NCBI RefSeq assembly: GCF_003086295.3
Contig: NC_092051.1
Coordinates: 79,492,445 to 79,556,444 of the forward strand
Source: Arachis hypogaea
Taxonomy: Eukaryota > Streptophyta > Magnoliopsida > Fabales > Fabaceae
DNA length: 64,000 nucleotides
Direction of reading: 5' to 3'
The position numbers and the translations under genes are program-made. The notes under the pieces were generated by a model, which saw only the letters and a program-made list of their open reading frames with translations, did not search any database and was not told the DNA's origin. Shown piece by piece: positions 7,547 through 61,744 of this stretch (position 1 is its first letter; every line of letters begins with the position of its first letter).

Positions 7547-8580
7547 AAAAAGTTTGAGCCAAAGTTTGCCTCAAACTTTAGCTCAAACTTTCAGAAGAGT
7601 TGAAAACATCCCAGAGGAAAAAAGCTTGAGCCAAAGTTTGCCTCAAACTTTAGCTCAAACTTTTGGGAGAAAAGCTTGAGCCAACGTTTGCCTCAAACTT
7701 TTTGGCAAACGTTGGCATCACAAAATCAATACCCTGGAGGAAAATGCTTGCGCCAACGTTTGAGGTAAAACTTTTGCTCAAACATTGGTGCCACACTTGC
7801 ACACCCTGGAATAAAAAGCTTGCGCCTACGTTTGAGGTCAAACTTTTGCTCAAACGTTGACGCCACACACCACAACAGCCTGAAGGGGTATACTTCCAAC
7901 AAGAATAATTTGAGCTACAGAGCTCCAAATGAGGTGATTCAAAAAGCAATGGAAAGTAGGAATCGAGAGATTTCCAAGCATATATGGCACTGCATGGTGG
8001 ACACTAAAATTGAGGGAGAAAACTGCCCCGAAATGTGCATAAACGAATATGGTGGCAACTTGCAGTGAGGCCAACTGACCTCTGCACCTTCGATGGAGTA
8101 TAACTCGAGCTGTGGAACTCCAAATGATGCGCTTCCAACGGCATTGGAAAGTAGACATTCAGGGTTTTCCAACAATGTATAATAGTATGGGGTGGACAAT
8201 GTGTTTGAGTCTCCAAAATCTGGCGTTTTCGACCACGTTTGAGGCAAACGTCGCCTCAAACGCTGCACACCAAAGCCAGCGACCTTGTCCTCTTCAAAGG
8301 AGCATAACTTGAGTTGTAGATGTCCAATTGAGGTGATTCCAAGTGGGTTAGAAAGCTGACATTCAGAGCTTTCCAACCATATATAATAGTCTATATTGGG
8401 CATAAAATCTGCAACGTGACAAGAGGACAAAGTAGCCCCCAAGAAGCATACAAAAGGGATCCACGTTTGGCTCAAAGTTTGACCTCAAACTTTGGCTCAA
8501 ACGTGGATGGCAGCAAGGAATGTTAGCTGATATGAAAAGTTTGAGTAAAAGTTTGACCTCAAACTTTTACTCAAGCTTTT
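7547..8580 (+). repeat. Palindrome array in 5' LTR of element a
   Basis: Repeated long inverted repeats built from AAAGTTTGAGC / GCTCAAACTTT and AACGTTTGAGG / CTCAAACGTT. In the first block (7547-7866) units recur about every 70 bp. Two more follow at 8461-8506 (arms CCACGTTTGGCTCAAAGTTT and its complement) and 8537-8580. Arms match each other better than they match other units. Confidence 0.85.
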
Positions 8581-8774
8581 CTGGTTCATGGCCCAGTTCA
8601 CAAATGGGTTTCTCTCCAACTCCAAGAGCAATCAACAGAGGCTATCTTCAACCCAATTCCATCAAGAGCAAGGGCCCAATTGACACCACTCAAAGGCACA
8701 AGAGATAGTTAGAATAGAAATTTCATTTTAATTGTAATTTGTTTTGAATTTCATTTTCTCTTTGTAAAAATGCC

Positions 8775-8782
8775 TATAAATA
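8775..8782 (+). promoter_or_regulatory. LTR TATA box of element a (5' copy)
   Basis: TATAAATA within the palindrome GCCTATAAATAGGC, followed about 45 bp downstream by GAGCTC and a run of T/C-rich leader. It is a candidate core promoter for the element transcript. The same box occurs in the 3' LTR at 13920-13927. Confidence 0.65.
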
Positions 8783-9676
8783 GGCATCTGTTTCATTTTA
8801 TTGGGGGGCGAGCTCCACTAGGGAGCATTAGGAATACAGAACTCTCTCTTTAGTTTTTCTTTTTGTTTTAAATCTTGGGTTGAGAATTGAAGAAATTCTG
8901 TTTCAATCTCACCTTGAGAATTCTCTCTGTTTTCTTCTTCTGCAAACTTTCAAGTGAATTGTGATTTGAATCAAAGTTCGTTTCATCGCTTTCATCTTTA
9001 ATTTTCCTGCATCTTGTTTGCTAGCGGATCAAGGAAGGAATTGAGATCTAGACTTGTTTTCTAGTCTCATTGATTTCTTGAGATCTTCAACCTCTCATTT
9101 AGATTTTGCAATTGAGCTGCATTTCATTTTCTGTTCGGTTTCTCAATTCAATTTACATTAAGCCTGCTGCAAATCTCATTTACATTTCCTGCACAATTTT
9201 AAATTCCTCTGCAATTGCTCTAAGTTCTAATTCACTGCAATTTTGCTTCTCTATTTACATTGCTCCCAATTTACTTTCCTGCAATTTAAGCTTGCTGCAA
9301 GAGTTTCGAATTCTGATATATTGCTCTATTTAATTTCCAGCACCCCAGCCCCTTTACTTTTCATGCAATTTACTTTTCTTGCAATTTATGTTTCAGCTAT
9401 TTTACTTTCTTGTTCTTTAAGTTACTTACAATTTTACTTTCTGCACTTTATAATTCCTGCAAATTTACATTCTGTTGGCTTCAATTGTCACTCAAATCAC
9501 TCAATGTTAGCTTGACTAAACTAATCACCCACTAAAGTTGCTTGATCCATCAATCCCTGTGGGATCGACCTCACTCACGTGAGTTTTACTACTTGATGCG
9601 ACCCGGTATACTTGCCGGTTAGATTTGTGTGTTTGGAATTCATTTTTCGTTTCCACAAAAATACACATGAAGTTTT

Positions 9677-12459: not shown

Positions 12460-14812
12460 TGATGACATGTCATCATGTCATATTTTTCTATGCTTTTTCC
12501 TTTGTTTTTAATAGGTTTTATGCACTTTCTTGAGCCATAAGCAAGCCAATTGGGTAGATTTTCATGTTTCCTTTGATTCAATTAACCATGGATGAATTAA
12601 TGCAATTTCATGAGATTTTATGCTATAATTGTCATATATTATGAAAGAATAACAAACTCATGATTTTGAGCAAAGCTTTGATGTGTTTGGTTGATTGATG
12701 ATAGGTGAAAAGAGTTTTGAAGAAGGTTGAAGAAAGAAGGAATGGTTAGGAGCAAGAGAGAACAAAAAGTTTGAGCCAAAGTTTGCCTCAAACTTTAGCT
12801 CAAACTTTCAGAAGAGTTGAAAACATCCCAGAGGAAAAAAGCTTGAGCCAAAGTTTGCCTCAAACTTTAGCTCAAACTTTTGGGAGAAAAGCTTGAGCCA
12901 ACATTTGCCTCAAACTTTTTGGCAAACGTTGGCATCACAAAATCAATACCCTGGAGGAAAAAGCTTGCACCAACGTTTGAGGTCAAACTTTTGCTCAAAC
13001 GTTGGCGCCACACACCACAACAGCCTGAAGGGGTATACTTCCAACAAGAATAACTTGAGCTACAGAGCTCCAAATGAGGTGATTCAAAAAGCAATGGAAA
13101 GTAGGAATCGAGAGCTTTCCAAGCATATACGGCACTGCATGGTGGACACTAAAATTGAGGGAGAAAACTGCCCCGAAATGTGCATAAACGAACATGGTGG
13201 CAACTTGCAGTGAGGCCAACTGACCTCTGCACCTTCGACGGAGTATAACTCGAGCTGTGGAACTTCAAATGATGCGCTTCCAACGGCATTGGAAAGTAGA
13301 CATTCAGGGATTTCCAACAATGTATAATAGTATGGGGTGGACAATGTGTTTGAGTCTCCAAAATCTGGCGTTTTCGACCACGTTTGAGGCAAATGTCGCC
13401 TCAAACGCTGCACACCAAAGCCAGCGACCTTGTCCTCTTCAAAGGAGCATAACTTGAGTTGTAGATGTCCAATTGAAGTGATTCCAAGTGGGTTAGAAAT
13501 CTGACATTCAGAGCTTTCCAACCATATATAATAGTCTATATTGGGTATAAAATTTGCAACGTGACAAGAGGACAAAGTAGCCCCCAAGAAGCATACAAAA
13601 GGGATCCACGTTTGGCTCAAAGTTTGACCTCAAACTTTGGCTCAAACGTGGATGGCAGCAAGGAATGTTAGCTGATATGAAAAGTTTGAGTAAAAGTTTG
13701 ACCTCAAACTTTTACTCAAGCTTTTCTGGTTCATGGCCCAGTTCACAAATGGGTTTCTCTCCAACTCCAAGAGCAATCAACAGAGGCTATCTTCAACCCA
13801 ATTCCATCAAGAGCAAGGGCCCAATTGACACCACTCAAAGGCACAAGAGATAGTTAGAATAGAAATTTCATTTTAATTGTAATTTGTTTTGAATTTCATT
13901 TTCATTTTGTAAAAATGCCTATAAATAGGCATCTGTTTCATTTTATTGGGGGGCGAGCTCCACTAGGGAGCATTAGGAATACAGAACTCTCTCTCTTTAG
14001 TTTTTCTTTTTGTTTTGAATCTTGGGTTGAGAATTGAAGAAATTCTGTTTCAATCTCACCTTGAGAATTCTCTCTATTTTCTTCTTCTGCAAACTTTCAA
14101 GTGAATTGTGATTTGAATCAAAGTTCGTTTCATCGCTTTCATCTTTAATTTTCCTGCATCTAGTTTGCTAGCGGATCAAGGAAGGAATTGAGATCTAGAC
14201 TTGTTTTCTAGTCTCATTGATTTCTTGAGATCTTCAACCTCTCATTTAGATTTTGCAATTGAGCTGCATTTCATTTTCTGTTCGGTTCCTCAATTCAATT
14301 TACATTAAGCCTGCTACAAATCTCATTTACATTTCCTGCACAATTTTAAATTCCTCTGCAATTGCTCTAAGTTCTAATTCACTGCAATTTTGCTTCTCTG
14401 TTTACATTTCTCCCAATTTACTTTCCTGCAATTTAAGCTTGCTGCAAGAGTTTTGAATTCTGATATATTGCTCTATTTAATTTCCAGCACCCCAGCCCCT
14501 TTACTTTTCATGCGATTTACTTTTCTTGTAATTTAAGTTTCAGCTATTTTACTTTCTTGTTCTTTATGTTACTTGCAATTTTACTTTCTGCACTTTATAA
14601 TTCCTGCAAATTTACATTCTGTTGGCTTCAATTGTCACTCAAATCACTCAATGTTAGCTTGACTAAACTAATCACCCACTAAAGTTGCTTGATCCATCAA
14701 TCCCTGTGGGATCGACCTCACTCACGTGAGTTTTACTACTTGATGCGACCGGCATACTTGCCGGTTAGTTTTAGGTGTTTTGAAAATTCATTTTTCCACA
14801 AAAACACCATCA
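12460..14812 (+). repeat. 3' LTR of element a
   Basis: A 2353-bp LTR starting TGATGACATGTCATCA and ending CCATCA, directly followed by the AAGTG duplication. It is nearly identical to the 5' LTR apart from scattered, mostly transition, differences and the loss of one palindrome unit of about 72 bp. Confidence 0.94.
12764..13725 (+). repeat. Palindrome array in 3' LTR of element a
   Basis: Same array as in the 5' LTR with one unit fewer. Units lie at 12764-13014, then at 13606-13650 and 13681-13725. TATAAATA follows at 13920-13927. Confidence 0.85.
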
Positions 14813-18810: not shown

Positions 18811-19300
18811 GGAGTGGGTAGGGTTAGGTTTCGGCCATAGGGTGGGTTTGTGTGGGAAATTTGATTTTTGAAGTAGGTGGGGGTAGGTGGGAATTATGAT
18901 GGTTTGGGGAAATGAAATGGATGTGATTGGACTAGGGTTTTTGGGGAAGTATGTATGGGGAAGTGGAAAAGTAGGTGGGGTTAAGTGGGGTAGGTAGGGT
19001 AGGTGAAGATTCTGTGGGACCCACAATTCTTGAGAGGCTATAGAATTCCAGATTCCCTACTTCTCTGCACTAGCGTTTGAACGACCAGGGGCTGCTCCTT
19101 GGCTGGCGTTCAACGCCAGCAATGCTTCCCTCTTGGGGCGTTGAATGCCCAGGAGGGCTTCCTCACTGGCGTTGAACTTTAACACTCTTTTCAGAGTGTT
19201 CTGTTTTCACTGCTGTGAATTCTATATCTTGACTGATGTACATGATCATGACTCTAAGACTGAAAGAAAAACAAAAACAAAATAAATAAAGTTGAGTAAA
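18811..19300 (-). other. Upstream region of the extra ORF
   Basis: No gene. Positions 18811-19020 are G/T-rich on the plus strand (C/A-rich on the sense strand), a simple-sequence-like stretch. Positions 19070-19175 carry three or four palindromes of the GGCGTTNAACGCC type. Confidence 0.55.
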
Positions 19301-22585: not shown

Positions 22586-24066
22586 TGATGCACCACTATT
22601 TGGTGGTGCATTCTATGCTGAATTTAGGGGATTTCATCACCCTTTTCTCACACTTATTCACTAAAATAGCATGGTTTTGTATATTCTCCCTAATTTATGC
22701 TTCAGAGTGAAAACATACCTTTTAGGCCCTTAATTGGTTAATTTTAATTTACTTTTAATTTCACTAGATGCCTTGATGTGTGTGTTAGTGATTTCAGGTT
22801 GAAAAGGCTAGGAATGGATCAAAGGAGTGAAGAGAAAGGCATGCAAAGTGGAGAAATCATGGAAAATCAAGGATTTGGGATGCATTCATCGATGTACACA
22901 TGTAGCAGACGCGCACACGTGGAATGTGAAGTCACATGGCAACGTATACGCGTACATGACGCGTACGCGTGGAAAGAAAAATCGCTAGTGACGCCTACGT
23001 ATGACCCACGCGTACGCGTCGATGCTCGCACGTGAGTTCATTAAAGTGAAATTGCTGGGGGCGATTTCTAGGCTTCCCAGGCCCAAATCTAACTCATTTC
23101 TGAGCCTATTATATGCAGAAATGAAGAGGAGTCAAGGGAAAAAAGTCCTAATTGAATTTTAGAGGGAATGTTTTAGTTAGTTTCTAGAGAGAGAAGCTCT
23201 CTCTTCTCTCTAGAATTAGGTTAGATGTAGATTAGGATTTCTTAGAACTATGTTTAATTTATGCTTTGATTTACTTTTCCTTTTCAATTCCTTGCTCTTC
23301 TACCTTCTCATTCTTAGTTTAGCATTTCAATTCTTGTAATTCTTTACTTTTATGTTGATGCAATTCATGTTTGGTTTCCTTTATTATTGATTTGCTTTAT
23401 TGTTCTTATTTCCTTGCAATTGGTAGTGTAGATCTACTTCTCTTGCAATTTGATTTTACTTTCCTTTTATGCCTTCCAAGTGTTTGACAAAATGCTTGGG
23501 AGGATGTTAGAGTAGATTTTTCTCCTCTTGGGTTTGGTTGAGTAATTAGAGACTCTTGAGTTATCAAACTCTTTTGTTGATTGATAATTGGAAGTTGCTA
23601 GTTGATTTGAATTCCACTAACTCTAGTCTTTCCTTAGGAGTTGACTAGGACTTGAGGAATTAAATTGATTATTTCCACTTGACTTTCCTTCATAGTTAGA
23701 GGTTGACTAAGTGGAGCAATAGACAATTGATGTCACAATTGATGATGATAATGATGATAGGACTTCTAGTTCTCATTCCTTGGCAAGAGCTTTCTTAGCT
23801 ATTAGTTTACTTCATTTGCAATTTATCTTTCATGTTTCTTATCCAAAAGCCCAAAGATATACAATCTATAACCAATAACAAGAGTACTTCCCTGCGATTC
23901 CTTTGAGAGACGACCCAAGGTTTGAATACTTCGGTTATTATTTTTAGGGGTTTGTTACTTGTGACAACCAAATTTTTGTATGAGAGGATTCTTTGTTGGT
24001 CTAGAAACTATACTAGCAACGAGATTTTATTTGTGAAATTCTAAACCGTCAAAAAATCATTCATCA
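22586..24066 (+). repeat. 3' LTR of element b
   Basis: A 1481-bp LTR starting TGATGCACC, with a perfect terminal palindrome at 22588-22611. ACGCGTACGCGT motifs lie at 22920-23030. The LTR ends CATTCATCA before GACGT. Confidence 0.93.
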
Positions 24067-24683: not shown

Positions 24684-24688
24684 GAAAG

Positions 24689-26110
24689 TGATGCACCACT
24701 ATTTTGTGGTGCATTTTATGCTGAATTGAGGAGACTTTATCACCTTTTCTCACACTTATTTAATGAAATAGCATGGTTTTGTAATTCTCCCTTAATTTGT
24801 GCTTAAGTGTGAAAACATGCTTTTTAGTCCCTTAATTGGTTAATTTTAATTCACCTTTGGTTCCACTTGATGCCTTGATATGTTTGCTAGTGAATTCAGA
24901 TTGAAAAGGCTACGAATGGATCAAGGGAGTGAAGAGAAAAGCATGCAAAGTGGAGAATTCATGGAAAATCAGGGATTGGGAGTGCATTCATCGACGCGTA
25001 CACGTGACATGACGCTTACGCGTGGAAAGCAAAAATGCCAAGCGACGCGTACGCGTCGCAGCTCGCACGTGACCTCATTAAAGTGAAAATGCTGGGGAAA
25101 ATTTCTGAGCTTTCCATGCCCAAATCCGACTCATTTTCTCAGCCTATTACATGTAGAATTCAAGAGGAGTTAAGGGGGGGAGCACATAGTAGAGTTTTCA
25201 TCATGCTTTAGTTAGTTTCTAGAGAGAGAAGCTCTCTCTTCTCTCTAGAAATAGGATAGATGTAGATTAGGATTTCTTAAATCTAGGTTTAATTCATGCT
25301 TTGATTTACTTTTCCTTTACAAATTCTTGTTCCTCTACCTTTGCTTCTCTAGTTTAGTACTTTATTCCTTGTATTTGTTTACTTTGTTGTTGATGCACTC
25401 TTTAATGTAATTTATGTTTGATTTCCTTTATTGTTGATTTGAGTTGTTGTTGTTAATTTCCTTGCAATTAGTAGTTGTAGATTTATATTTCTTGCAATTT
25501 TATTTTGCTTTTCTTTTATGCCTTCCAAGTGTTTGATTAAATGCTTGCAAGGATGTTAGAGTAGATTTTCGTGTTCTTGGCTTGGGATGGTAACTTAGCT
25601 GAAGTTGAGTTGCTAATGTCCAAGTGTTGATAATTGGTGTCCATTGACTCTAGCTTCCACTAAGTTAATTAGTGAGGTGGCTAGGACTTATGGATTAGGA
25701 TTGGTGTAGCTCATTTAACTTTTCTTTCACTTGTTAGAGGATGACTTAATGAGATTGATCCTTACCATTGTCATGTTGTGGTTAGTGACAAGGATAAAGA
25801 TCCTTAACCATCAACCCTTGCCAAGACCTTTTTATCATTTGAGTTTCATTTACTTTCTTGCCATTTATCTTTCATATCTCTTATTCAAAACCCAAAAATA
25901 TGCATCTTATAACCAATAATAAGAACACTTTCCTGCAATTCCTTTGAGAGACGACCCGAGGTTTAAATACTTCGGTTTATATTTTTATCAGGGTTTGTAC
26001 TTGTGACAAACATATTTTTGAATGAGAGGATTATTTGTTGGTTTAGAACTATACTTGCAACGAGAATTTATTGTGAAATTCTATACCAACACGCAATTTT
26101 CTCATCATCA
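24689..26110 (+). repeat. 5' LTR of element c
   Basis: A 1422-bp LTR with a perfect terminal palindrome (24691-24714). ACGCGT/ACGCGTACGCGT motifs lie at 24990-25065, a GAGAGAGAAGCTCTCTCTTCTCTCT inverted purine/pyrimidine stretch near 25220, and a tail ending CTCATCATCA. Confidence 0.92.
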
Positions 26111-27775: not shown

Positions 27776-29119
27776 AATAATGATGATCAATTTAAAGACG
27801 GGGTGTCAAAACAAAATGTGGGATCCCAGATCGCATAAAGAGAATCAATTTTGGGATCTCATGGTTTGTGAAAAACTCCATCAAGGCTTGGAGGTATTAA
27901 TTTTGAAGAATGGAGCTTATTGGAGACTCAAGCATTGGTGGATATTCAAGGATGGCTTCAAGCACAAGCCACCTTGATAAGGAGCTCCCCATAAGTCCAA
28001 CTTAAGGATAATAAAAAAAAAGTGCTAGGTGGGAGACACCCCACCATGGTAACATCTTTTCATTTTTCTCTTTTGTAAATATTGGTAAAATTATTTTAAT
28101 TTCATGTTTTGATTGGTTTGTTGAGTTTAGTTGGTAGTCTATTATGTTAAATAAGCTTTTATGGTGCTTTGGTAGCTGTTAGAGGTTTGGGATGCTAGGT
28201 TTGGTGCAAAAACATGAAAAAATTTCGAAAAACAGAGCACCAACCCACGCGACCCCAAGCTTTTCGACCATCCATGCGTACGCGTCACCCACGCGTATGC
28301 GTGGATTCAAAAATTCCACCTCCATACAAAGTCCAGAATGTTGTGCCCACTTGATGCCAACTTTGTGCGCGAGGCACAAGCCTGCCGATGCGTACAGGTC
28401 GACTCACGCATACGCGTCACCTCTCTGAATAACCCATCATGCTTACACGTGACATATGCATACGCGTCGCTTCCATTTCACTACCCCATGTGCACGCGTC
28501 ACATCACGCGTACGCGTGCATCGCCCTGTTTCACTACTCTTCTTTCCTTCTTTTCTTTCCATTTCTTTCCTTCTCTTCCCTCCTTCTCTTTTCTTCCCCT
28601 TCTTCAACTACCATCCAACACTACCAATCACCATCTAACACCATTTCTTTTAGTTAGTTAGTTAATAAGTTGTTTTGTTAGTTAAATTTTCATTTAATTT
28701 TTTGTTTTTTCACAATAAGTGTTGGATTATTAATTTTGTTTGCTGTTTATTGCTGCTGATTATTGATGAGATGTTAGTTTAACATCATTATTGTTAATTG
28801 TCATTGTTAGATTCTTTGTTGAGGTTACATTACTTGGGTTGACTTTTTAATGCTTAATTTTGTGAATACCAAGTGAATGAAATTGCCTTCAAGCTTTCTA
28901 AATCTTTTTGAATTGCAAGATTTGGCCACCATGTGATTTGAATTCTTTTCATTGATTAGGCAATTTCTTGATGGATGTTGTGCATTTATCTTAATGCATT
29001 GTGTTTCTTGATCATATGTATCCATATGTTTTTGGCTTGAATGCTTTCATGCTTCTTTATTGCTTGTTTGGTTGTCTTAACCCACAAGTTTAGAGCATCT
29101 CAAGCACATTAGGATGAGT
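27776..29119 (+). other. 3' internal region of element c, first half
   Basis: Contains the post-coding hairpin, then (28262-28522) a cluster of about eight ACGCGTACGCGT-type motifs like those in the LTRs. A pyrimidine-rich stretch (28535-28640) and AT-rich sequence with TTAGTTAGTTAGTTA follow. Small ORFs here overlap the motif cluster and look non-coding. The region continues at 53584 after the nested element. Confidence 0.6.
28028..28045 (+). promoter_or_regulatory. post-coding hairpin GGTGGG-AGACAC-CCCACC
   Basis: Perfect 6-bp stem with a 6-nt loop. Compared with GTTGGG/CCCAAC, the second pair is G-C instead of T-A, with both sides changed. Preceded by AAAAAAAGTGCTA. Confidence 0.75.
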
Positions 29120-29446
29120 TGATGCCAGGGCATCTTGGCCAGTTTCACTGACCTTTTCTTTACTATTTTTAGGATAGTTTCATGCATTTCTTTAGGAAAT
29201 AAGCTAGTTTTGGGTAGATATTCACCTACACCTTGATTCAAGCATACATTGTGCATTTTACATTATTTCATGAGGATTTTGCATGAATTTAGTGACAAAT
29301 TGTATGCTGCATTACCCATGACATGGACTAGAACTTTGATGCACTCTGTTGCTTGATTTCAGGACCAAAGGAAACAAGGAAAGGGAGGTAACTTGCAAGG
29401 TTAATGAGAAAAGTGATTGCCAATAACACTTTCAAAGCCATCATTG

Positions 29447-30249
29447 CCCACGTTAAGAGTCATGTTAACAAAGTTAACGTGCACTCTAACGTGGAGAAGG
29501 GAAGTTGAGCCAACGTTAGTGACACTTAACATTGTCACTAACGTTGGCAAACACTCATGAGTGGCCACGTTAGAGCCCACGTTAACCTAGTTAACGTGGC
29601 CTCTAACGTTAAAGGGGGAAGAGAAGCCAACGTTAGTGACATTCAACATTGTCACTAACGTTGGCCTAAGGATACAACACACAACGTTAACTCCCACGTT
29701 AACTTGGTTAACGTGGGAGCTAACGTAAGAAGTGAGAGTTGTCGACAACGTTAGTGACACTCAACATCGTCACTAACGTTGGAAGCAACCACACAACCCC
29801 AAGGAGCCACGTTAACTTAGTTAACGTGGAAGCTAACGATGAGGGATGAATGATGAGCCAACGTTAGTGACACTCAACATTGTCACTAACGTTGGGATGG
29901 CTAAGAATGGCCACGTTAGAAGCCACGTTAACCTAGTTAACGTGGACTCTAACGTGAGATCTAGGGGCACATTGGAACGTTAGTGACAATGTTGAGTGTC
30001 ACTAACGTTCTCGAAGTTTGGCAAAGCCACGTTAGAAGCCACGTTAACCTAGTTAACGTGGGCTTTAACGTGAAGCAAAAAGGGGCACACTGGAACGTTA
30101 GTGACAATGTTGAGTGTCACTAATGTTCTCGAAGGTTGGCAAGGCCACGTTAGAAGCCACGTTAACCTAGTTAAAGTGAGCTCTAACGTGAGGCAAAGGG
30201 GTACATTGGAACGTTAGTGAAAATGTTAAGTGTCACTAACGTTCTCGAA
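29447..30249 (+). repeat. Palindrome array, CCACGTTAAC and AACGTTAGTGACA families
   Basis: Two long palindromes alternate about eight times: arms CCACGTTAAC / GTTAACGTGG with a 2-4 nt centre, and arms AACGTTAGTGACA / TGTCACTAACGTT with an 8-nt centre that flips orientation in the second half of the array (TCAACATT, later AATGTTGA). The pair recurs roughly every 110-120 bp. Confidence 0.9.
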
Positions 30250-30421
30250 CTTATACTTTCACTAAATGTTAACACCCCTAATGCCCTGAGCTAAAGTCTC
30301 TGCCCACTTAGCACTTTCTCTCTGCAAGTAAAGCCAAGCCCAAATGAAGAAAAAAACTACTTCAAACTCAAGATCCAAAGGCCCAAGACTTGAAGAGCAA
30401 ACTAGAAGCTGAGAAGAGTAG

Positions 30422-30429
30422 TATATATA
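30422..30429 (+). promoter_or_regulatory. LTR TATA box of the Athila-type element (5' copy)
   Basis: AGTATATATAGGAG, about 170 bp after the palindrome array, with a T/C-rich stretch downstream. The same box is at 52601-52608 in the 3' LTR. Confidence 0.6.
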
Positions 30430-31411
30430 GGAGTAGCTTTGAATTGTTAAAGGAGTTCTGGAGGCTGGGAAAAGAGAACTACTCTCTGTATTTTACCTTC
30501 TCTGCATTTTCTAGTTTTATGATGTATTCTCCATCTTTGTTTTCATTTTCTAGAGCTATGAACAACTAAACCCCTTTCATTGGGTTAGGGAGCTCTGTTG
30601 TAATTTGATGGATCAATACTAATTTTCATTATTCTTCTTCTATCTTTTCTCTTGATTTTACTTGAAAGCTTTCGATCTTCATCCCATTGAGTAGTTATCT
30701 TGGAAAAGAAGCTATTCAAACTTGGATCTCTTTTGAACCATGAAAGAGGAATGAAGAGATCAAGCTAGAAATGATTTCTCATGTTGGACCAAATTGGGTT
30801 TGGATGGTTATGTGACTATAACCCTCTCAATACTTGATTTGGGAAATGCATGTGGTACAATCAGTGACCATACTTCATCTCTTCTCATGAGCAATTGACA
30901 AAGGAATTGGCTATTGATCAAGACTTGAGAGATTGAATTGCAAGAAATTGTAATTCAATCAATTAAGATTGCCAAGGAGATCAATGAGTGCATTGATTGA
31001 GGAAGAGATGAAAATGAACTTGATCCAGAGAATTGCAACATCTCCTAAGCCCAATGAACTCCCCATCTCTGATCTTACCCATTCTCTTTAATTTCTGCCA
31101 TTTACTTTTATGAGCAAATCCCCCATTCCCATTTACAATTCTGCAATTTATTTTCAGTCATTTACTTCCAGTCCTTTAATTCTAGCATTTACTTTTCTGT
31201 TATTTACATTCCCGCTATTTTATTTTCTGCAACTCTCAACCCAAATTCTAGATTCGCTCAACTAGAACATTCTTCTAATTAAAGTTGCTTGATCAATCAA
31301 TCCCTGTGGGATTCGACCTCATTCTATTGTGAGTTTTTACTTGACGACAAATTCGGTACACTTGCCGAAGGGAGATTTGTTGAGAGACAAGTTTTTCGCG
31401 CATCAAGTTTA

Positions 31412-32137: not shown

Positions 32138-32650
32138 TGTAACGACCCAACTCCCAGTATGCCATGGTCATACAAGAAGCTAAGTGTTACTAACTTATCC
32201 CTCTTAATTATTAACTATTATTTACTATATGAGCCTGTTCCTTGTTAGAGTGATGCCAATTTTACGGGTAGCTTTTTTTTTTTTTTTATATCGTATCGTT
32301 GCGGATAACAAGGTAAAATAAACAAGCATATATTGGGAGTAACAGAAAAGCGGCATAAAGAAACATAGAGACACAACTGATAATATACATCATGTACACT
32401 ATAACAAAACATGCGGCGTTTACACCAGATCAAGTCAGTTTACATCCTCGTCATCCTGCGTAGCTAATATATACACGACACTCCCAGGGCCTGGCCCATA
32501 CAAAAAGCCACTAATCTGGCACCCAGGCTAGCCTAACCACTATATAGCTCCTAGCTCTCGGGTGTACTAACACAAGTGAGAGACTAACTAACAGATAATG
32601 TCAGACTAGAGTGTCATCAAAAGAATGCCCCTTCCGCAGTCAAGCTATAT

Positions 32651-40833: not shown

Positions 40834-41347
40834 ACTTGTAACGACCCAACTCCCAGTATGCCATGGTCATACAAGAAGCTAAGTGTTACTAACTTATCCC
40901 TCTTAATTATTAACTATTATTTACTATATGAGCCTGTTCCTTGTTAGAGCGATGCCAATTTTACGGGTAGCTTTTTTTTTTTTTATATCGTATCATTGCG
41001 GATAACAAGGTAAAATAAACAAGCATATATTGGGAGTAACAGAAAAGCGGCATAAAGAAACATAGAGACACAACTGATAATATACATCATGTACACTATA
41101 ACAAAACATGCGGCGTTTACACCAGATCAAGTCAGTTTACATCCTCGTCATCCTACGTAGCTAATATATACACGACACTCCCAGGGCCTGGCCCATACAA
41201 AAAGCCACTAATCTGGCACCCAGGCTAGCCTAACCACTATATAGCTCCTAGCTCTCGGGTGTACTAACACAAGTGAGAGACTAACTAACAGATAATGTCA
41301 GACTAGAGTGTCATCAAAAGAATGCCCCTTCCGCAGTCAAGCTATAT

Positions 41348-41947
41348 CTACACGTGGCCGTTCGGAGAATCGCCGTGAGGCTCGTCCATCTCCTCATCCT
41401 GCTCTATCTCTATCTCAGGATCCTCCTCCTCCTCATCGTCCACAACTGCAACTATGTCCTCAGATCCACCAGAAATACTGCTGTCACTATGTACAAAACC
41501 ATTCGCAAGCACAGGTCCGTTCGCGTATATAGGAGCTACCCCACCGTCCGGTAGTGCTGGCTCATCAGGCTGTGGAAAGTCGGGGATTGGCTCAGGGGGA
41601 AAATCCCACTCTGGTGGTATCACAGGTACGTAGTCATCAGCTAACTCAGGCTCATCAGGAATGATAGGCTCAGGTACCGCCTCATTCAAAGGTTGAGCTG
41701 GTATAGGGTGCTCAGGATCATCAGGAAAAGGATGTCCAGGTGCGTCAGGGTGTAACCAGGATAAGGGAAAGTCGTAAGGAGCATCAGGGTCAAAATGCGG
41801 GCTAGACAGAGGATGTTGAAAAGCTCGATTAGGTAACGCATATCGTCTAATACGAGGCTCCAAACCCATAATGAAGTAATTGTGATGTACCGGATCCTCG
41901 TAGACGTAAGGGTCCTCGAACTCATAGAAGATCACGCCCGTCTCCAT
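41348..41947 (-). CDS. LTR-embedded acidic proline-rich ORF, 199 aa (5' LTR copy)
   Basis: ATG 41947 to TAG 41348. Same length as the 3' LTR copy and 8 amino-acid differences from it by my count (for example HHNYF for HHSYF, FQHPL for FQQPL, ALPDGG for ALSDGG). I count 13 base differences in 600, nearly all transitions. In this copy the ORF would lie upstream of gag in the element transcript if transcription starts further right. It may be translated from the leader, spliced, or not expressed at all. Composition: proline, aspartate and glutamate, acidic C-terminus; no domain recognised. Confidence 0.52.
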   Translation of the reverse strand: METGVIFYEFEDPYVYEDPVHHNYFIMGLEPRIRRYALPNRAFQHPLSSPHFDPDAPYDFPLSWLHPDAPGHPFPDDPEHPIPAQPLNEAVPEPIIPDEPELADDYVPVIPPEWDFPPEPIPDFPQPDEPALPDGGVAPIYANGPVLANGFVHSDSSISGGSEDIVAVVDDEEEEDPEIEIEQDEEMDEPHGDSPNGHV

Positions 41948-42341
41948 CTGAGGGGGGAGGAAGGGAGAGAAGGGGTAAGAACTGGGGAGTTCTTAGTAGG
42001 GTCGGGGTTATTAGTTACGTTCATTTATTTGATTCCGATTAGCAGATAGATATTAGAATACAGTAAAGTAGTAAACAGTAGTTAAAATAGATAGGGAAAA
42101 TAGAAAACAGAACACAAACAGAAGAATGCAAGAAAATAAAGCATAGACATAGCACTCAAGCAAACAAACATAAAGAAATTGATCAAACACAAGTAGGAAT
42201 GCAACAGAGAATAACGCACAGACAAGAATGATGCATGTCTAGTCCTAGTGCAGGTAATGAGCTCATTTGTCGGTTTCTACCCGCTCCCGACGTAACCCAG
42301 CATTACTAGCCGGATATGGCTTTCCTGTTGGCTATACCCCT

Positions 42342-42532
42342 GTGTACAGGAAATAACCCTTCTGCTACCACAGGGTCCACTGCACGCAGGAAATAACACA
42401 TCTGCCACTGCAGGGTTGTATGCCGACACACCTTCTGTATACAGGAAATAACCCCTCTGCCACTACAGAAATGGAACAGGTGGTCACGGTACTTCTGTAG
42501 CTGGAAATAACCCCTCTGCCTTACAGAAATAA
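42342..42532 (-). repeat. Four-unit hairpin repeat with CAGGAAATAACCCCTCTGCC (5' LTR copy)
   Basis: Same four units as in the other LTR, with one unit changed from TAGCAGG to TAGCTGG near 42498. Confidence 0.8.
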
Positions 42533-44744
42533 AATATGGACCTGTACCGCAGGAAAGCGTTTCTCAGTGGTTGCACCATTATCTATCTGACTGCTACAAT
42601 GCAGTAGATGAACATATAGATATCTTTGAGGTTGCCTTAATGCAACAGATGACCTCTCAATAGGTCCTCTACTCTTTATCATATTACTCTCTTCGCTTTG
42701 TCTCTTTATTCTGCTCTGTTTGTTCCTTTCTCTGCGCTTCCTCACTTTATTCTGCTTTCTCTATTTAACGTATGTATTTAAAGTTTATGTAAATTTCGGT
42801 ATGATTAGTTAGCCTGCCCCAAGTATAGGTTCATTAAGTCTATACTGAAACAGTTTAACTTTTCATATAATACCTAACCCTATTCGCAAATCAAGAACTA
42901 ACTATGTTGCCCTAGTTCGTTCACTACTCTTTGTCTGTTTCTCTGTTGTTAAAATTTTACAGACTTTTTCTTCGATTTTTATCTTTTCTTCAACTTTTTA
43001 TCTTTTCTTTATCTTTGCCTCACTAATATGTTTTTACCACTCCCTAAGTGTTTTATGAAGGTAATTATGAGATTCTGCGCTTAAAGTTGTCTTTCTAAAG
43101 CTTTTACAGAAAACTGCCTTTTTCGCATTATTTTATTATTTTTATTAAAATATTATTTTTAATTAAATATTATTATTTAATATTTTATTATTATTTATTA
43201 TTTTATTAATATATTTTCGAAAATTAACTTTACTTTAACCTTTAACCTTTAAAATTCACTTTTTACCACCCGTAACTTTTAATATTTCTACTTTTACCAC
43301 CCTAACTTCCAGAAATTACCATATAACCCCTTAAACACCAAAAATTTTACTTCCTTGCCCTTTTATGAATCAAAAAGGTGTTCTTCATTGTTCTTCACCA
43401 CACTCAAAGTGTTCTTCATGTTCTTCATAAATTCTTCAGATTCTTTCTCTGTTTTTACCCGTTTTTCAGTCTTTTCAGCCACCGATTTTTACTATAATTC
43501 ATAATAAATTAGCAGCCACTAAAACCCCATCTTTTCTACATGATTTCAACACAAATTGAACCTCAATTTAAGCTTAGGGTTTCGTTTTCCCAGCTGCCCA
43601 AGAACATGAACTTTAAAGCTTAAATTTCATCAAATTTCATCAGAATTTCACCAAATTTTCACCAAAAATCAATCATATATGCAACCAATTTTTAGGACAG
43701 CCAAATAATACAACATTCACACATCTCAAACACAATTAATCAAGATTAATTTCGTGACACCCTACCTGGTCTTGCTGCTCCTAATTCAATCAAACTTTCA
43801 GGTGGTCCTTAAACACTTTTTCCTCCTAAATCACATCAAGAAAACACATATTTAAGCATGTTTCCTTGAAACTGAATCAAAAGAGAGATGGTACAGCCAA
43901 CTCACCTTGATCCCAGCCTTGATAAGTCATATGATCATGCAGAGAAAGAAGAGAGGATCATTTTGGTCGGATTGGAATTTTGATTTGAGTTTTAGTTCAG
44001 CAGAAATCAAGCTTTGAAGATTTGGAACTAAGAACTTTTCTCTCTTTTTCTCTCTACCTATTTTCGGCCACAAAGTGAAAATGAGCCAGCCTTGGGGGTT
44101 TTGGGGGTGTAGGGTGAGTTGTGATTGGTTGGCTTGGAGGTGGATTAAAATAATATTAAAATATCTCAGGTGTATAACTACTAAAACTAAATGTATCGGA
44201 ACACTTGCAAAAACATGTCTAAAAATTATTTTCTAAGCTACTAGCATAAATGACACTAGTAACATATTTATTATGAGAATGAAACATGAATAATGAGGCC
44301 TTAGCATTGCTAAAGTCATCAGGGAGTGCTGGTGCTAAGCTGCACCAGTAAATTGTGAACCCGGTTAAACCGGTTTTCTGTTTTTAACTAAAACTGATCA
44401 GGTAACCTTATAATATCATTCAAGAGGCTTCTAATACTCATATAATGATAATATCATCCTATTATCTCTCTCCTCTCATAAATCGAGTCCGGTTTGTCAA
44501 ACTGAGATTATTTACGAAAAATCAAATTAAAACTCCTAACCGATACGGTTCAAAAACTAGATTCCTCGTGATTGCATTATCGAGCTTGTCTCGGAAAAGG
44601 TTCTAACTTAAAGATGACATAATGACAATGAGGATTGAGATACTTGATGATATATCAAAGGTTTTTCCCTTACTGATTTTCCGGAGAAATTCGTACTTTC
44701 AGAATAGATCTCGCGTACTCGAAAACCGGGGTTGTTACATTCTC

Positions 44745-51296: not shown

Positions 51297-53583
51297 TGAT
51301 GCCAGGGCATCTTGGCTAGTTTCACTGACCTTTTCTTTACTGTTTTTAGGGTAGTTTCATGCATTTCTTTAGGAAATAAGCTAGTTTTGGGTAGATATTC
51401 ACCTACACCTTGATTCAAGCATACATTATGCATTTTACATTATTTCATGAGGATTTTGCATGAATTTAGTGACAAATTGTATGCTGCATTACCCATGACT
51501 TGGACTAGAACTTTGATGCTCGCTGTTGCTTGATTTCAGGACCAAAGAAAGCAAGGAAAGGGAGGTAACTTGCAAGGTTAATGAGAAAAGTGATTGCCAA
51601 TAACACTCTCAAAGCCATCATTGCCCACGTTAAGAGTCACGTTAACTAAGTTAACGTGCACTCTAACGTGGATAAGGGAAGTTGAGCTAACGTTAGTGAC
51701 ACTTAACATTGTCACTAACGTTGGCAAACACTCATGAGTGGCCACGTTAGAGCCCACGTTAACCTAGATAACGTGGCCTCTAACGTTAAAGGGGGAAGAG
51801 AAGCCAACGTTAGTGACATTCAACATTGTCACTAACGTTGGCCTAAGGATGCAACACACAACGTTAACTCCCACGTTAACTTGGTTAACGTGGGAGCTAA
51901 CGTAAGAAGTGAGATTTGTCGACAACGTTAGTGACACTCAACATCGTCACTAACGTTGGAAGCAACCACACAACCCCCCAAGGAGCCACGTTAACTTCCA
52001 TGTTAACTTAGTTAACGTGGAAGCTAACGATGAGGGATGAATGATGAGCCAACGTTAGTGACACTCAACATTGTCACTAACGTTGGGATGGCTAAGAATG
52101 GCCACGTTAGTAGCCACGTTAACCTAGTTAACGTGGACTCTAACGTGAGATCTAGGGGCACATTGGAAGGTTAGTGACAATGTTGAGTGTCACTAACATT
52201 CTCGAAGTTTGGCAAAGCCACGTTAACCTAGTTAACGTGGGCTTTAACGTGAAGCAAAAAGGGGCACACTGGAACGTTAGTGACAATGTTGAGTGTCACT
52301 AACGTTCTCGAAGGTTGGCAAGGCCACGTTAGAAGCCACGTTAACCTAGTTAACGTGGGCTCTAACGTGAGGCAAAGGGGTACATTGGAACGTTAGTGAA
52401 AATGTTAAGTGTCACTAACATTCTCGAACTTATACTTTCACTAAATGTTAACACCCCTAACGCCCTGAGCTAAAGTCTCTACCCACTTAGCACTTTCTCT
52501 TTGCAAGTAAAGCCAAGCCCAAATGAAGAAAAGAACTACTTCAAACTCAAGATCCAAAGGCCCAAGACTTGAAGAGCAAACTAGAAGCTGAGAAGAGTAG
52601 TATATATAGGAGTAGCTTTAAATTGTTAAAGGAGTTCTGGAGGCTGGAAAAGAGAACTACTCTCTGTATTTTACCTTCTCTGCATTTTCTAGTTTTATGA
52701 TGTATTCTCCATCTTTGTTTTCATTTTCTAGAGCTATGAACAACTAAACCCCTTTCATTGGGTTAGGGAGCTCTGTTGTAATTTGATGGATCAATACTAA
52801 TTTTCATTATTCTTCTTCTATCTTTTCTCTTGATTTTACTTGAAAGCTTTCGATCTTCATCCCATTGAGTAGTTATCTTGGAAAAGAAGCTATTCAAACT
52901 TGGATCTCTTTTGAACCTTGAAAGAGGAATGAAGAGATCAAGCTAGAAATGCTTTCTCATGTTGGACCAAATTGGGTTTGGATGGGTATGTGACTATAAC
53001 CCTCTCAATACTTGATTTGGGAAATGCATGTGGTATAATCAGTGACCATACTTCATCTCTTCTCATGAGCAATTGACCAATGAATTGGCTATTGATCAAG
53101 ACTTGAGAGATTGAATTGCAAGAAATTGTAATTCAATCAATTAAGATTGCCAAGGAGATCAATGAGTGCATTGATTGAGGAAGAGATGAAAATGAACTTG
53201 ATCCGGAGAATTGCAACATCTCCTAAGCCCAATGAACTCCCCATCTCTGATCTTACCCATTCTCTTTAATTTCTGCCATTTACTTTTATGAGCAAATTCC
53301 CCATTCCCATTTACAATTCTGCAATTTATTTTCAGTCATTTACTTCCAGTCCTTTAATTCTAGCATTTACTTTTCTGTTATTTACGTTCCCGCCATTTTA
53401 TTTTCTGCAACTCTCAACCCAAATTCTGGATTCGCTCAACTAGAACATTCTTCTAATTAAAGTTGCTTGATCAATCAATCCCTGTGGGATTCAACCTCAC
53501 TCTATTGTGAGTTTTTACTTGACAACAAATTCGGTACACTTGCCGAAGGGAGATTTGTTGAGAGACAAGTTTTCCGCGCATCA
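51297..53583 (+). repeat. 3' LTR of the Athila-type element
   Basis: A 2287-bp LTR, same terminal palindrome (51298-51311) and tail as the 5' copy, ending CGCGCATCA before TGAGT. TATATATA at 52601-52608. Base substitutions are sparse, while indels of 10-20 bp are concentrated in the palindrome array. Confidence 0.94.
51624..52429 (+). repeat. Palindrome array in 3' LTR of the Athila-type element
   Basis: Same alternating palindromes as 29447-30249. Compared with that copy it gains about 18 bp near 51990 (an extra GTTAACTTCCAT piece) and loses about 17 bp near 52215 (one CCACGTTAGAAG piece). Confidence 0.88.
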
Positions 53584-58549: not shown

Positions 58550-59372
58550 TGATGCCAAGGCATCTTAGGATAGTTTCACTAGCCTTTTTCTTTTATTTTT
58601 AGTTATTTTATGCATTTTCTTGAGCCTTAAGTAATCATTTGGGCCAAATAGTCATGCTTGTCTTAAATCATTCAACATGAAGATTTTGATGCAAATTCCA
58701 TGAGTTTTTAGTTATATTACTTGAATGCTATGAATGGAAGATTTCTCATGAAATTTTGCAAGACTTTGATGCAATTGTTTGGATGATTTCAGGGAAGAAG
58801 AGGCTAGGCAAGGAAGCAACAAAATCAATAAAGGAAGCTTGAATATCACATGTGGAGTTTAAGTTCCAGTTTAAGCTTAAACTGGAACTTAAACTACCAA
58901 GCCATATAATGCTGGAATTGAAGTTTAACCTCCAGTTTAACCTTAAACTGGAGGTTAAACGCCAGAAGTGAGAATCTCACCAGGGGAGCATTTCCACGTT
59001 TAACCTCCAGTTTAACCTTAAACTGGAGGTTAAACGCCAGAAGTAAGAAAGGCACCAGGAGCATTCCACGTTTAAGCTCCAGTTTAACCTTAAACTGGAG
59101 CTTAAACGTGTTCGACTATTTTTCTCCTCCAGGGTTGCTTTCTCATTTCCACGTTTAAGCTTCAGTTTAACCTTAAACTGAAGCTTAAACGTGCTCGAGC
59201 TTGTGCCTCCAGGGAGTGCCAGCGTTTAAGCTCCAGTTTAAGCTTAAACTGGAGCTTAAACGTGTTATATGGAACAGCTTGACCATGCCTTCTTCAAACA
59301 TAAATAACTTGAGCTACAAAACTCCAAATGAGGTGATTCAAAATGCATTGGAAAGAAGACATTTAGAGCTTT
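58550..59372 (+). repeat. LTR of the truncated element, left 823 bp, plus orientation
   Basis: Starts TGATGCCAAGGCATC and holds six palindrome units at 58857-59262, followed by the shared core block (GAGCTACAAAACTCC, GCATTGGAAAGAAGACAT). It breaks off after AGAGCTTT, where an oppositely oriented LTR of the same family begins. Confidence 0.88.
58857..59262 (+). repeat. Palindrome array, 6 units, arms GTTTAAGCTCCAGTTTAA type
   Basis: Each unit has about 18-nt arms around a 2-nt centre (CC on this strand, or none). Units start near 58859, 58921, 58997, 59070, 59153 and 59223. The 5 bases after GTTTAA vary (GCTCC, GCTTC, CCTCC, GTTCC), and the opposite arm varies to match. Confidence 0.92.
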
Positions 59373-59379
59373 AGGAAAT

Positions 59380-61744
59380 TGCACGATCGGCAAAATTTCT
59401 TCCGGCAAGTGCACCGGTTATCGTCAAGTAAAAACTCACAATAGAGTGAGGTCGAATCCCACAAGGATTGGTTGAGTGAGCAATTCGGATTAGAAGTGTG
59501 TTCTAGTTGAGCGGAATCAAGATTTAGATGAGAATTGCGGAATGTAAAATTGGCGGGAAACGTAAATGACAAGAAATTTAAATGGCGGAATCTTAAATTG
59601 CATGAATTAAAGAGCAGAAGCTAAATTGCTGAAATTAAAAGGGAATGGGGGTGATTGCATGAATTGAGTTGCAGAATGTAAAGAGAAAGTGGAAATCAGA
59701 AATGGGGAATTCATTGGGTGTTAGGAGATATTGAGATCTCCGAATCAAAACATGTTTATCTCTTCCTCAACCAATGCGTTCATTGAATTTTGCTTGGCAA
59801 TCTTATATGATTGGATCCCAATCCCTTGGCTCACCAATTCTCTCTAAAAACAAACAAATTCCCAATCCCTTGGTTTAAATGTTCATAAGAAGAGATGATG
59901 CTCGATCACTGATTTTACCACACAGTTTCATGAACCACAATTTGGTAGGATTACATGTCACAATATCCATCCAAACCCCAATCCAATTCACTGTGAGAAA
60001 GCTTCTCTAGCATGAATCCTCCATTCCTTTCCCAAGGTTCCGAAGGATTCCAATTATGGGTAGTTTCTTTCCCAAGACAACTACCCAATGGAATTAGATC
60101 GAGAAGCTTTCTAACAAAATTCAAGAGAAAAGGTTGAAGAAGAAGATAAACTATTATTGATTCATTGAATTACAATAGAGCTCCCTAACCCAATGAAAGG
60201 GGGTTTAGTGAGTCATAGCTCTGAATTCAATTACAAAGATATGAAAACTAGCCAAAAATGAAAAGGTCAAAAGTCCTTCCTAACTTAAATTCTATCCTAT
60301 TTATACACTTTCTATATTGAGCTTCTGTTGTGTTTCTTGGGCTTTGAGGCTTCTCCCTGCTTTCCTTTTGCCTTGGGTTTATGATCCATAATCTTAATGA
60401 GGCTGCTGATCCAAATTCTGTAACATTCATTGAGCCAACTTTAGTGATAATCAAATAATGACACATGACTAAACAAATTGAAATTTCAGACTCATCAATC
60501 CTTCAGGCCCAATCCCATAAACCATGATATTCAATTGGGTTTCATACCAGAGTAAGTTTAAGTTAATGTTTGTGCTCAAATACTAACTTAAACTGCAATA
60601 TTTTTGGCCTAGAAACCTTTTCCAAGAGTGGCGTTTAAGTTGCAGTTTAAGCTTAAACTGCAGCTTAAACGCCAGACACTTCCAGTGATGCCTTTTGTGG
60701 AAGCACGTTTAAGCTTCAGTTTAAGGTTAAACTGAAGCTTAAACGTGGAAATGGAAGAAGGCAGCCCTGGAGGGTAACTTAGTCGAACACGTTTAAGCTT
60801 CAGTTTAAGGTTAAACTGAAGCTTAAACGTGGAGATAGGAAAGGCAGCCCTGGAGGTCGAACACGTTTAAGCTCCAGTTTAAGGTTAAACTGGAGCTTAA
60901 ACGTGGAAATAGAGAAAGCCATCTGGGAGGTCGAACACGTTTAAGCTCCAGTTTAAGGTTAAACTGGAGCTTAAACGTGGAAGCTGAGAAAGGTAGCCCT
61001 GGAGGTGTCGAACACGTTTAAGCTCCAGTTTAAGGTTAAACTGGAGCTTAAACGTGGAAATGGAGAAAGCAACCCTGGAGGAGAAAACTTGGTCGAACAC
61101 GTTTAAGCTCCAGTTTAAGGTTAAACTGGAGCTTAAACGTGGAAATGGCTCCCTGGTGCATTTCCCATTTCTGGCGTTTAACCTCCAGTTTAAGGTTAAA
61201 CTGGAGGTTAAACGTGGAAATGCTTCCTGAGTGGAATTCTCATTCTGGCGTTTAACCTCCAGTTTAAGGTTAAACTGGAGGTTAAACGTGGAAATGCTTC
61301 TTTGGTGAGACTTTCATTCTGGCGTTTAACCTCCAGTTTAAGGTTAAACTGGAGGTTAAACTTCAGTTTCAGCATTTCTTAGCCTTCATGATTCTGGCGT
61401 TTAAGCTCCAGTTTAAGCTTAAACTGGAACTTAAACTCCACATGTGATATTCAAGCTTCCTTTATTGATTTTGTTGCTTCCTTGCCTAGCCTCTTCTTTC
61501 CTGAAATCATCCAAACAATTGCATCAAAGTCTTGCAAAATTTCATGAGAATTCTTCCATTCATAGCATTCAAGTAATATAACTAAAACTCATGGAATTTG
61601 CATCAAAATCATACTGTTTGGATGGTTCATTGCTTTGTTATTCATTTAACCATTCTTGGTTACTTTAAGCTCAAGAAAATGCATAAAACAACTAAAACTA
61701 ACAGAAAAATGCTAGTGAAACTAGCCTAAGATGCCTTGGCATCA
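59380..61744 (-). repeat. Complete LTR of the same family, minus orientation
   Basis: About 2365 bp. On the minus strand it starts TGATGCCAAGGCATC (ending at 61744) and ends GATCGTGCA at 59380. Outer part is a near copy of 58550-58856 in reverse. It then has eleven palindrome units, a unique middle (59660-60620), and the family tail with TGTGGGATTCGACCTC (near 59450). No internal element sequence or target duplication accompanies it. Confidence 0.88.
60631..61440 (-). repeat. Palindrome array, 11 units
   Basis: Units start near 60633, 60707, 60790, 60864, 60938, 61014, 61100, 61175, 61250, 61323 and 61398, mostly 73-76 bp apart. Arms are 18 nt with centre GG on the plus strand. Arm variants GCTTC/GAAGC, GCTCC/GGAGC and CCTCC/GGAGG are paired within units. 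Between units run variable spacers, many with AGGCAGCCCTGGAGG. Confidence 0.93.

Follow-up and report, generated by a model that had tools for sequence, protein, structure and literature searches.

A nest of long terminal repeat (LTR) retrotransposons fills the 64,000-nucleotide stretch of the peanut (Arachis hypogaea) genome analysed here (C16:79492445-79556444; hereafter the window), and the LTRs of five of its families carry palindromic arrays that begin 296-369 bp into the LTR. The families are a FIDEL-like one, element a, the TGATGCACC family (b), an Athila-type element and the TGATGCCAAGG family (e); the names FIDEL and Athila and the lineage labels are our own assumed assignments and have no database source. 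The arrays are genuine and characterise the LTRs of this group; most of the LTRs sampled follow a common grammar, so that we do not see five unrelated inventions. Our findings suggest, with a probability that we put at about 0.55, that they are CpG-bearing upstream control elements of the LTR promoter, to which a protein binds by recognising paired GTT/AAC half-sites.

Self-comparison of the window served to map LTR pairs and copies. Inverted repeats (IRs) were counted when perfect, with arms of at least 8 and loops of at most 24, and each LTR and array of the window was compared with 200 dinucleotide shuffles. IR coverage over whole LTRs was 17.5 and 19.0% in the two Athila-type LTRs, 20.8% in e, 9% in a and 5.1-5.8% in FIDEL, b2 and b3; no shuffle reached these values in FIDEL, a (both LTRs), b2, b3, Athila (both) or e. 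The palindromic arrays that an earlier sequence-only reading had placed at five sites are borne out at all of them, b1 being the LTR whose coverage does not exceed chance (reached by 64 of 200 shuffles). Within the arrays, coverage rises to 45% in Athila, 55% in e, 33% and 22% in the two blocks of a, 39% in the FIDEL LTR array and 57% in the FIDEL internal array. The b LTR arrays, which consist of a few CpG-rich ACGCGT words, do not by themselves exceed their shuffles (Table 1). At 2.5% coverage, the nested element's LTR likewise lies above all 200 of its shuffles, but its IRs are scattered with arms of at most 10, and there is no array in its first 900 bp.

Counted from the first LTR base, the arrays start at 369 in FIDEL, 303 in a, 324 in b2, 296 in b3, 319 in Athila and 308 in e, the true offset being one higher for FIDEL and a, whose LTR starts were taken one base late in the computations (listed coordinates are corrected). 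A TATA-like box lies 170 (FIDEL), 195 (a), 62 (b2), 170 (Athila) and 323 bp (e) beyond the array end. The earlier claim that all arrays lie upstream of the TATA region thus holds in five of the six LTRs checked, no TATA-like box having been found downstream of the b3 array. That the arrays occupy one place in the LTR agrees with these starts, but arrays also occur outside LTRs (Table 1). The e array, previously given as 60631-61440, is present, with corrected limits of 60628-61436 in an LTR on the minus strand.

Beyond the window, in the genome of 2.56 Gb and 440 contigs, we sampled LTRs systematically, drawing every fifth of the first 100 places; 100 shuffles were made per sampled LTR. The exact junction TTTAAGTTTGGTGTTGTGATGNC has 6529 + 6560 matches (13,089) in the genome and its reversed control none. 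Among 20 group LTRs of 1100 bp each, all on the one chromosome C1, IR content exceeded all 100 shuffles in 19, and in the remaining one (L038) it was reached by 3 of 100. Mean coverage per successive 100 bp from the LTR start was 4.8, 1.0, 8.2, 19.0, 32.6, 26.8, 28.1, 21.8, 27.0, 24.3 and 16.6%. The control, a single family picked by the LTR start of the nested element (723 places), yielded no LTR above all its shuffles among 20, at a mean coverage of 0.8% versus 0.9% in shuffled sequence; two control LTRs were reached by only 2 of 100 shuffles. The comparison of IR density with shuffles and with another lineage, which had been proposed as the check, thus gives 19/20 versus 0/20 in peanut with one control family and, together with the fixed place, argues that the arrays meet a functional requirement that recurs, for example as binding sites.

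FIDEL-type junctions are more numerous (18101 + 18035 exact matches, 36,136 in all). At least three GGCGTTNAACGCC-like dyads (up to 3 mismatches) were present in 18 of the 20 FIDEL-type LTRs sampled, also all on C1, at offsets near 376, 406, 437 and 468, and 9 of the 20 exceeded all 100 shuffles overall. Of 20 stretches of 10 kb chosen blind to sequence, 11 hold an IR cluster of at least 40% GC, nine of them FIDEL-type by eye, and 13 of 21 sources, window included, together contain 124 copies of the FIDEL core (up to 1 mismatch). Three repeat pairs were found inside the random stretches, none usable as an LTR-pair control.

The families' palindromes had been described as unrelated, a view that our comparison does not support, since a common half-site, a 12-bp lattice and arm-matched divergence connect them. 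The half-site [AC]GTT...AAC[GT] is common to four of the five families. In one unit each of a and e, half-sites stand at positions 4, 16, 28 and 40 in the orientation > > < <, and in one Athila B unit at 4, 16, 29 and 41, with an extra match at 25. Over 48 bp, the a unit at 8460-8507 can be aligned with the e unit at 61096-61143; 33/48 bases are identical, and five of the ten differing pairs are changed in both arms with pairing kept. For units picked by hand, similarity between a and e and between e and FIDEL beats 400 of 400 palindrome-preserving shuffles, followed by e-b (399), a-Athila A (397), e-Athila B (395), a-Athila B (394) and Athila A-B (390); 8 of the 15 unit-set pairs are not significant.

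Among CGTT..AACG pairs with gaps of 8-34, 311 of 357 have gaps of 9, 21-22 or 32-34 (24 LTR pieces; 310 distinct sequences). For same-strand [AC]GTT sites, analysed together with mismatches in 23 pieces, 12 bp is the commonest spacing in Athila (13 LTRs), a (2), e (1) and a35 (1) and is tied with 26 in e39 (1 LTR). Of the 4-mers scanned, only AACG/CGTT and ACGT were informative in four families or more; by itself, CGTT has its peak at 12 in one family, as against four of five for GTT (6 of 13 Athila LTRs used). The outer parts of the a, Athila and e LTRs can be aligned, with 64-67% identity from base 1 to about base 251-268 and 65-75% in the 3' part, while the arrays of Athila and e gave no alignment at E <= 1e-3 (plus strand). 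One sampled LTR, L039, has an e-like start (first 255 bp 74% identical to e) and contains both CAACGTT and ACGCGTACGCGT dyads, a mixture that suggests module exchange. Another, L047, has a second junction about 900 bp in; it was excluded from the 8-mer turnover and terminal-palindrome sets and kept in the IR, pairing and spacing analyses.

The arrays are also richer in CpG than the remainder of their LTRs. The observed/expected (O/E) CpG ratio is 1.04 in the Athila array versus 0.24 in the 3' part and 0.00 in the 5' flank, 2.16 versus 0.24 in b3, 0.69 versus 0.42 in e, 0.53-0.56 versus 0.37 in a, and 0.71-0.79 in FIDEL (0.71 in the LTR array) versus 0.58 in the rest of the 3' LTR. CpG sites in arrays continue to decay after insertion (7/59, against 9/36 elsewhere; p = 0.16), and the difference gives no clear sign that arrays are protected from methylation once inserted. 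Retention of a half-site whose CpG is mutable in methylated DNA, in lineages that moved, would be consistent with purifying selection.

The arrays had been described as fast-changing. In a comparison of 22 LTRs, the shares of common 8-mers in array and flank were 0.47 and 0.61 at flank identities of 0.9-1.0, 0.17 and 0.29 at 0.8-0.9, and 0.07 and 0.11 at 0.7-0.8, with arrays sharing fewer in 19/23, 43/45 and 59/63 pairs, respectively. At lower identities the difference disappears (0.05 versus 0.04 at 0.6-0.7 and 0.04 versus 0.03 at 0.5-0.6; arrays lower in only 36/95 and 2/5 pairs). Array divergence is therefore somewhat faster than that of the flanks at identities of 0.7-1.0, and not explosive, so that a strong form of the fast-changing claim finds no support. 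Copies of e with 99-100% identity across the probe vary in how many perfect dyads they hold; L009 and L010, 100% alike there, differ in array length, their last dyads lying 1001 and 1081 bp from the LTR start.

In several unit sets, changes in one arm tend to be matched in the other. Across 17 e units, pairing holds in 345 of the 374 cells, a value above the maximum of 340 obtained in 5000 arm swaps, and variable columns change as pairs (G-C/C-G 12:5; C-G/T-A/G-C 13:3:1). A wider set, drawn from the 24 LTR pieces and with cross-pairs between nested sites included, was examined within the CGTT..AACG frame. None of 1000 shuffles reaches its pairing at inner positions 1-6 or at outer positions 1-3, where up to four pair types occur; inner position 7 falls within the shuffled range and inner position 8 below the shuffled mean. 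Of 120 FIDEL flanks, 114 pair at distance 6 (shuffled mean 110.4, maximum 114), 68 at distance 7 (55.5, 70) and 50 at distance 9 (35.5, 49), which is the only distance to exceed all 1000 shuffles; from distance 11 on there is no clear pairing signal. For FIDEL units (window and minus-strand arrays), 195 arm swaps out of 3000 gave pairing as high as that observed.

Covariation of this kind could reflect a DNA dyad or an RNA hairpin. In 64 near-perfect dyads, sense-strand mismatches comprise 33 A.C, 17 G.T and 39 others; G.T stands against A.C at 2 to 6 in e, 20 to 26 in FIDEL, and 4 to 20 and 4 to 16 in Athila B, with the few Athila A units showing the reverse (4 to 1 and 3 to 1). Selection on a sense RNA hairpin is disfavoured by this lack of a G.T excess. 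Taken together, arm covariation, CpG content and the absence of any favour for G.T make a DNA dyad, rather than an RNA hairpin, the best reading of the arrays.

The fixed position, the dyads, the lattice in several families, the covariation in several unit sets, the CpG richness and the absence from one control family are features observed in the arrays, and from them we infer the following scheme. The unit would be a composite DNA dyad in which two [AC]GTT sites 12 bp apart are mirrored by AAC[GT] in the other arm, giving four sites on a 12-bp lattice, of which the FIDEL dyad GGCGTTNAACGCC would be the simple two-site form. A dimeric or multimeric DNA-binding protein may bind the array and drive or license transcription in the manner of an on/off switch; the binder would most likely be a host transcription factor, presumably MYB-like, judging by the AAC core. 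The CpG in the half-site would render binding sensitive to methylation. Families would diverge through matched changes in the two arms and through unit turnover, half-site and spacing being kept, and the ACGCG..CGCGT family would use a different factor. The grammar itself, a 12-bp lattice with arm-matched drift, is measurable in sub-groups that hold 15 of the 20 sampled LTRs (all but aCATATA, with e39 as a tie), and defined probes make the question of what reads LTR palindromes a direct binding question.

Several observations weigh against this scheme. The 12-bp lattice is absent from the aCATATA sub-family (5 of the 20 sampled LTRs), in which other dyads are present; the b family stands apart with ACGCG..CGCGT and CGCG words; and with neither the four-site form nor the ACGT core present in FIDEL, no one known site fits all families. 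CpG O/E falls to 0.37-0.57 within the internal arrays that the minus-strand FIDEL-like element carries, and reaches 0.67 in the array-free gag-pol of the nested element. As for covariation, the shuffles ignore relatedness; Athila A units alone, which occur in both orientations with the loop unpaired, show none (3000/3000 and 2880/3000 arm swaps reach the observed pairing), and Athila B units alone are reached by 847 and 78 of 3000. The excess of A.C over G.T mismatches has no explanation, and arm pairing is also expected if template switching during reverse transcription copies arm onto arm.

That last process is central to the view of the arrays as a functionless mutational by-product, in which slippage yields tandem units and template switching matches their arms. 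Quasi-palindrome correction is a known process, and the arrays are indeed tandem and vary in length between copies. Such a process would leave unexplained the fixed place, the conserved CpG-bearing half-site, the lattice across diverged families and the absence from the control. Moreover, the 23 array substitutions that have accumulated since insertion between the 5' and 3' LTRs of a and of the Athila-type element include a single symmetric position pair, which does not pair; symmetry is therefore not restored in the chromosome at a visible rate, and we regard a by-product origin as distinctly improbable. A role in RNA dimerization or packaging, which the sequence-only reading had listed, appears very unlikely. 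Retroviral leaders use palindromes as dimer sites, and the U3 and internal arrays should be present toward the 3' end of the genomic RNA; the LTR arrays, however, lie upstream of the TATA-like boxes and are predicted to be absent from the 5' leader. The role is disfavoured because of this position and because sense G.T pairs are not in excess, although the few Athila A units lean the other way.

An escape race with host silencing, also raised earlier, would have hairpin transcripts of the dyads feed small-RNA silencing, with changed arrays escaping and a promoter need keeping arrays in place. Small RNAs are reported to map in excess to the palindrome clusters in LTRs of maize Sireviruses (PMC10760457, PMC5311732), arrays diverge faster than flanks among the closer LTRs, and L009 and L010 differ in array length. 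Set against this, arrays outpace their flanks only modestly, the conservation of the half-site is not what escape would favour, and the sense G.T pairs expected under selection on an RNA hairpin are not in excess; we therefore hold such a race to be unlikely. It also seems rather improbable that a protein encoded by the element or a partner reads the arrays and counters the silencing of its own family, for which VANC and the TnpA of En/Spm offer parallels. Equally doubtful is its broader form, in which one such reader would serve most peanut Athila-group elements, recognising four GTT/AAC half-sites on the 12-bp lattice, opposing CpG methylation of the LTR and co-evolving with the inner arms in family-specific versions. 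In favour of an encoded reader, internal regions too contain arrays, a Transposase_32 frame lies downstream of the array in one minus-strand element, and VANC motifs are family-specific, tandem and non-coding according to PMC5735166. The Athila-type copy, however, shows only gag and pol domains and has no sense-strand frame of at least 70 aa between integrase and 3' LTR, none of the ten frames scanned contained a recognisable DNA-binding domain, and VANC sites point in one orientation, whereas the peanut arrays are dyads.

Table 1. Arrays, LTRs and copies in the window; shuffle counts give how many of 200 shuffles reach the observed IR coverage.
Feature	Position	Strand	Description
FIDEL-like LTR array	3150..3262	+	four GGCGTTNAACGCC-like dyads, 31-bp spacing
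FIDEL-like internal array	1285..1480	+	past integrase region; same GGCGTT dyads; 0/200
Element a array, 5' LTR	7547..8580	+	two blocks, 7547-7870 and 8225-8590
Element a four-site dyad	8460-8507	+	48 bp
Element a array, 3' LTR	12766..13719	+
b2 array	22910..23045	+	CpG O/E 2.10; 28/200
b3 array	24985..25070	+	ACGCGT words; 8/200
b internal array	28250..28520	+	ACGCGTACGCGT words as in b LTR; 4/200
Athila-type array, 5' LTR	29439..30252	+	AACGTTAGTGACA dyads alternating with nested CCACGTTAAC dyads; 0/200
Athila-type array, 3' LTR	51616..52428	+
e array	60628..61436	-	44-bp dyads, arms up to 21 bp; 0/200
Second e array	58850..59266	+	in partial plus-strand LTR starting at 58550
Internal GGCGTT array, minus-strand FIDEL-like element	19075..19195	-	upstream of Transposase_32 frame 17659-18180
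GGCGTT array within open frame	61830..62020	-	further internal dyads at 24510-24688, beyond b insertion
FIDEL-like LTR	2780..4368	+	TGATGAGCGG...; polypurine tract (PPT)/LTR junction AAGTTTGGTGTTG then TGATG; end approximate
Element a 5' LTR	7243..9670	+	end approximate; AAGTG both sides; primer-binding site (PBS) at 9677
Element a 3' LTR	12460-14812	+	pairs with 7243..9670
b family copies	19963, 22586, 24689, 55460		by self-comparison
b3 LTR	24689..26110	+	ends CATCATCA, then PBS-like TGGCGCCGTTGCCGGGA
Athila-type 5' LTR	29120..31405	+	TGAGT both sides; PBS at 31412
Athila-type 3' LTR	51297-53583	+	pairs with 29120..31405
e LTR	59380..61744	-	3' end approximate; identity to Athila LTR 75% in 3' part, 64% in 5' part
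Nested element LTRs	32138-36044, 40837-44743	-	40837..44743 used as comparison LTR

The computed LTR bounds differ slightly from those listed (FIDEL start 2781; a 7244-9673 and 12461-14818), some ends being 3-6 bases long. Element a is flanked by AAGTG duplications and the Athila-type element by TGAGT; the latter has its domains in the order gag, reverse transcriptase-RNase H, then integrase in the next frame, which is the Ty3/gypsy order. The junction of AAGTTTGGTGTTG with TGATG is common to the FIDEL-like, a, Athila and e LTRs. The PBS TGGCGCCGTTGCCGGGG, typical of Athila, follows the a and Athila-type LTRs exactly and b3 with one mismatch; it was unmatched for FIDEL and e, whose 5' LTR sides lie outside the window or are rearranged. 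The nested element is presumably chromovirus-like, judging by its SH3_Tf2-1 domain.

The first bases of the LTRs starting at 7243, 22586, 24689, 29120 and 61744, and of the sampled LTRs L035-L054 other than L047, form a family-specific terminal palindrome, in the forms GATGCC..GGCATC, GATGACATGTCATC and ATGCACCAC..GTGGTGCAT. Arms of at least 4 occur in 24/24 group LTRs, 0/20 FIDEL-type LTRs and 1/20 control LTRs. A conserved module (GAGCTACAGAACTCCAAATG...TTGGAAAG) is found three times in a (about 7912, 8075 and 8294) and also in FIDEL (about 3010) and the plus-strand e LTR (about 59308), lying beside arrays or between them. The partial plus-strand e LTR (from 58550) is joined near 59375-59380 to the minus-strand e LTR, with the end of one LTR meeting the interior of the other, which resembles self-integration or a fold-back rearrangement. 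The 40 best matches to an e-array probe (60700-61150), with 40 of 1897 candidates scored, all lie on C11-C20, which suggests that the e family was active in one subgenome.

In the minus-strand FIDEL-like element, the array-bearing open frame lies in the segment 61769-62809, and a further frame (24064-24570) lies in the segment 24064-24688 (minus strand), past the b insertion; the Transposase_32 (PF20167) frame at 17659-18180 is on the minus strand, downstream of this element's internal array. Past the FIDEL internal array, at about 1540-1560 and well before the LTR PPT, stands a second PPT-like word (AAGTTTGGTGT); similar words occur in some random stretches, such as L018 and L027. Between two b LTRs, the AT-rich tandem and inverted repeats at 22066-22380 (GTTACAAAATATT...) look like an unrelated insertion. 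Viral relatives were sought and set aside: an integrase probe turned up no relative among viral contigs, and the PBS word occurs in four GC-rich ones (64-68% GC) with no IR cluster at the match, which we took as chance.

Among known systems, a literature search in which subscription papers were thinly covered turned up no report of such arrays in Athila-group LTRs. The U3 regions of Tnt1 and Tto1 carry repeated, partly palindromic boxes bound by host factors (MYB for Tto1); unlike the peanut elements, these are copia elements with other motifs and few units. Like the VANC targets of VANDAL elements, as described in PMC5735166 and PMC10398659, the peanut arrays are short, family-specific motifs in non-coding tandem repeats that diverge quickly and jointly; they differ in being dyads with no known encoded reader, whereas VANC motifs have one orientation and a reader encoded by the element. 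The Retand arrays are likewise family-specific tandem arrays in plant gypsy elements, but they lie between pol and the 3' LTR, and matched-arm dyads are not described in the accessible text of PMC11963269.

The closest known case, going by PMC2829016, is that of the repeated motif (RM) boxes of Sireviruses (Ty1/copia), high-copy palindromic repeats that begin 200-400 bp past the LTR start and upstream of the TATA box, are CpG-rich, differ between elements and, in some of these, also recur in the internal linker. In peanut, the dyads begin 296-369 bp into the LTR with a TATA-like box 62-323 bp downstream in five of six LTRs, array CpG O/E exceeds that of the 3' LTR remainder in FIDEL, a, b3, Athila and e, and internal copies occur in the FIDEL-like and b elements, in which an env gene was not identified. 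The differences concern lineage and core: the Athila-type element has the Ty3/gypsy and not the copia order, and its group uses [AC]GTT..AAC[GT], with enriched words CGTT/AACG, ACGT or CGCG-bearing, instead of the CGG-CCG core present in 12 of the 13 RM boxes listed in PMC2829016, whose available text describes no counterpart of the four-site 12-bp lattice with nested arms. Two plant retrotransposon superfamilies appear to have arrived at one promoter design, a CpG-rich palindrome array about 300 bp into the LTR built from different core words, which bears on why such arrays survive despite attracting small RNAs in maize.

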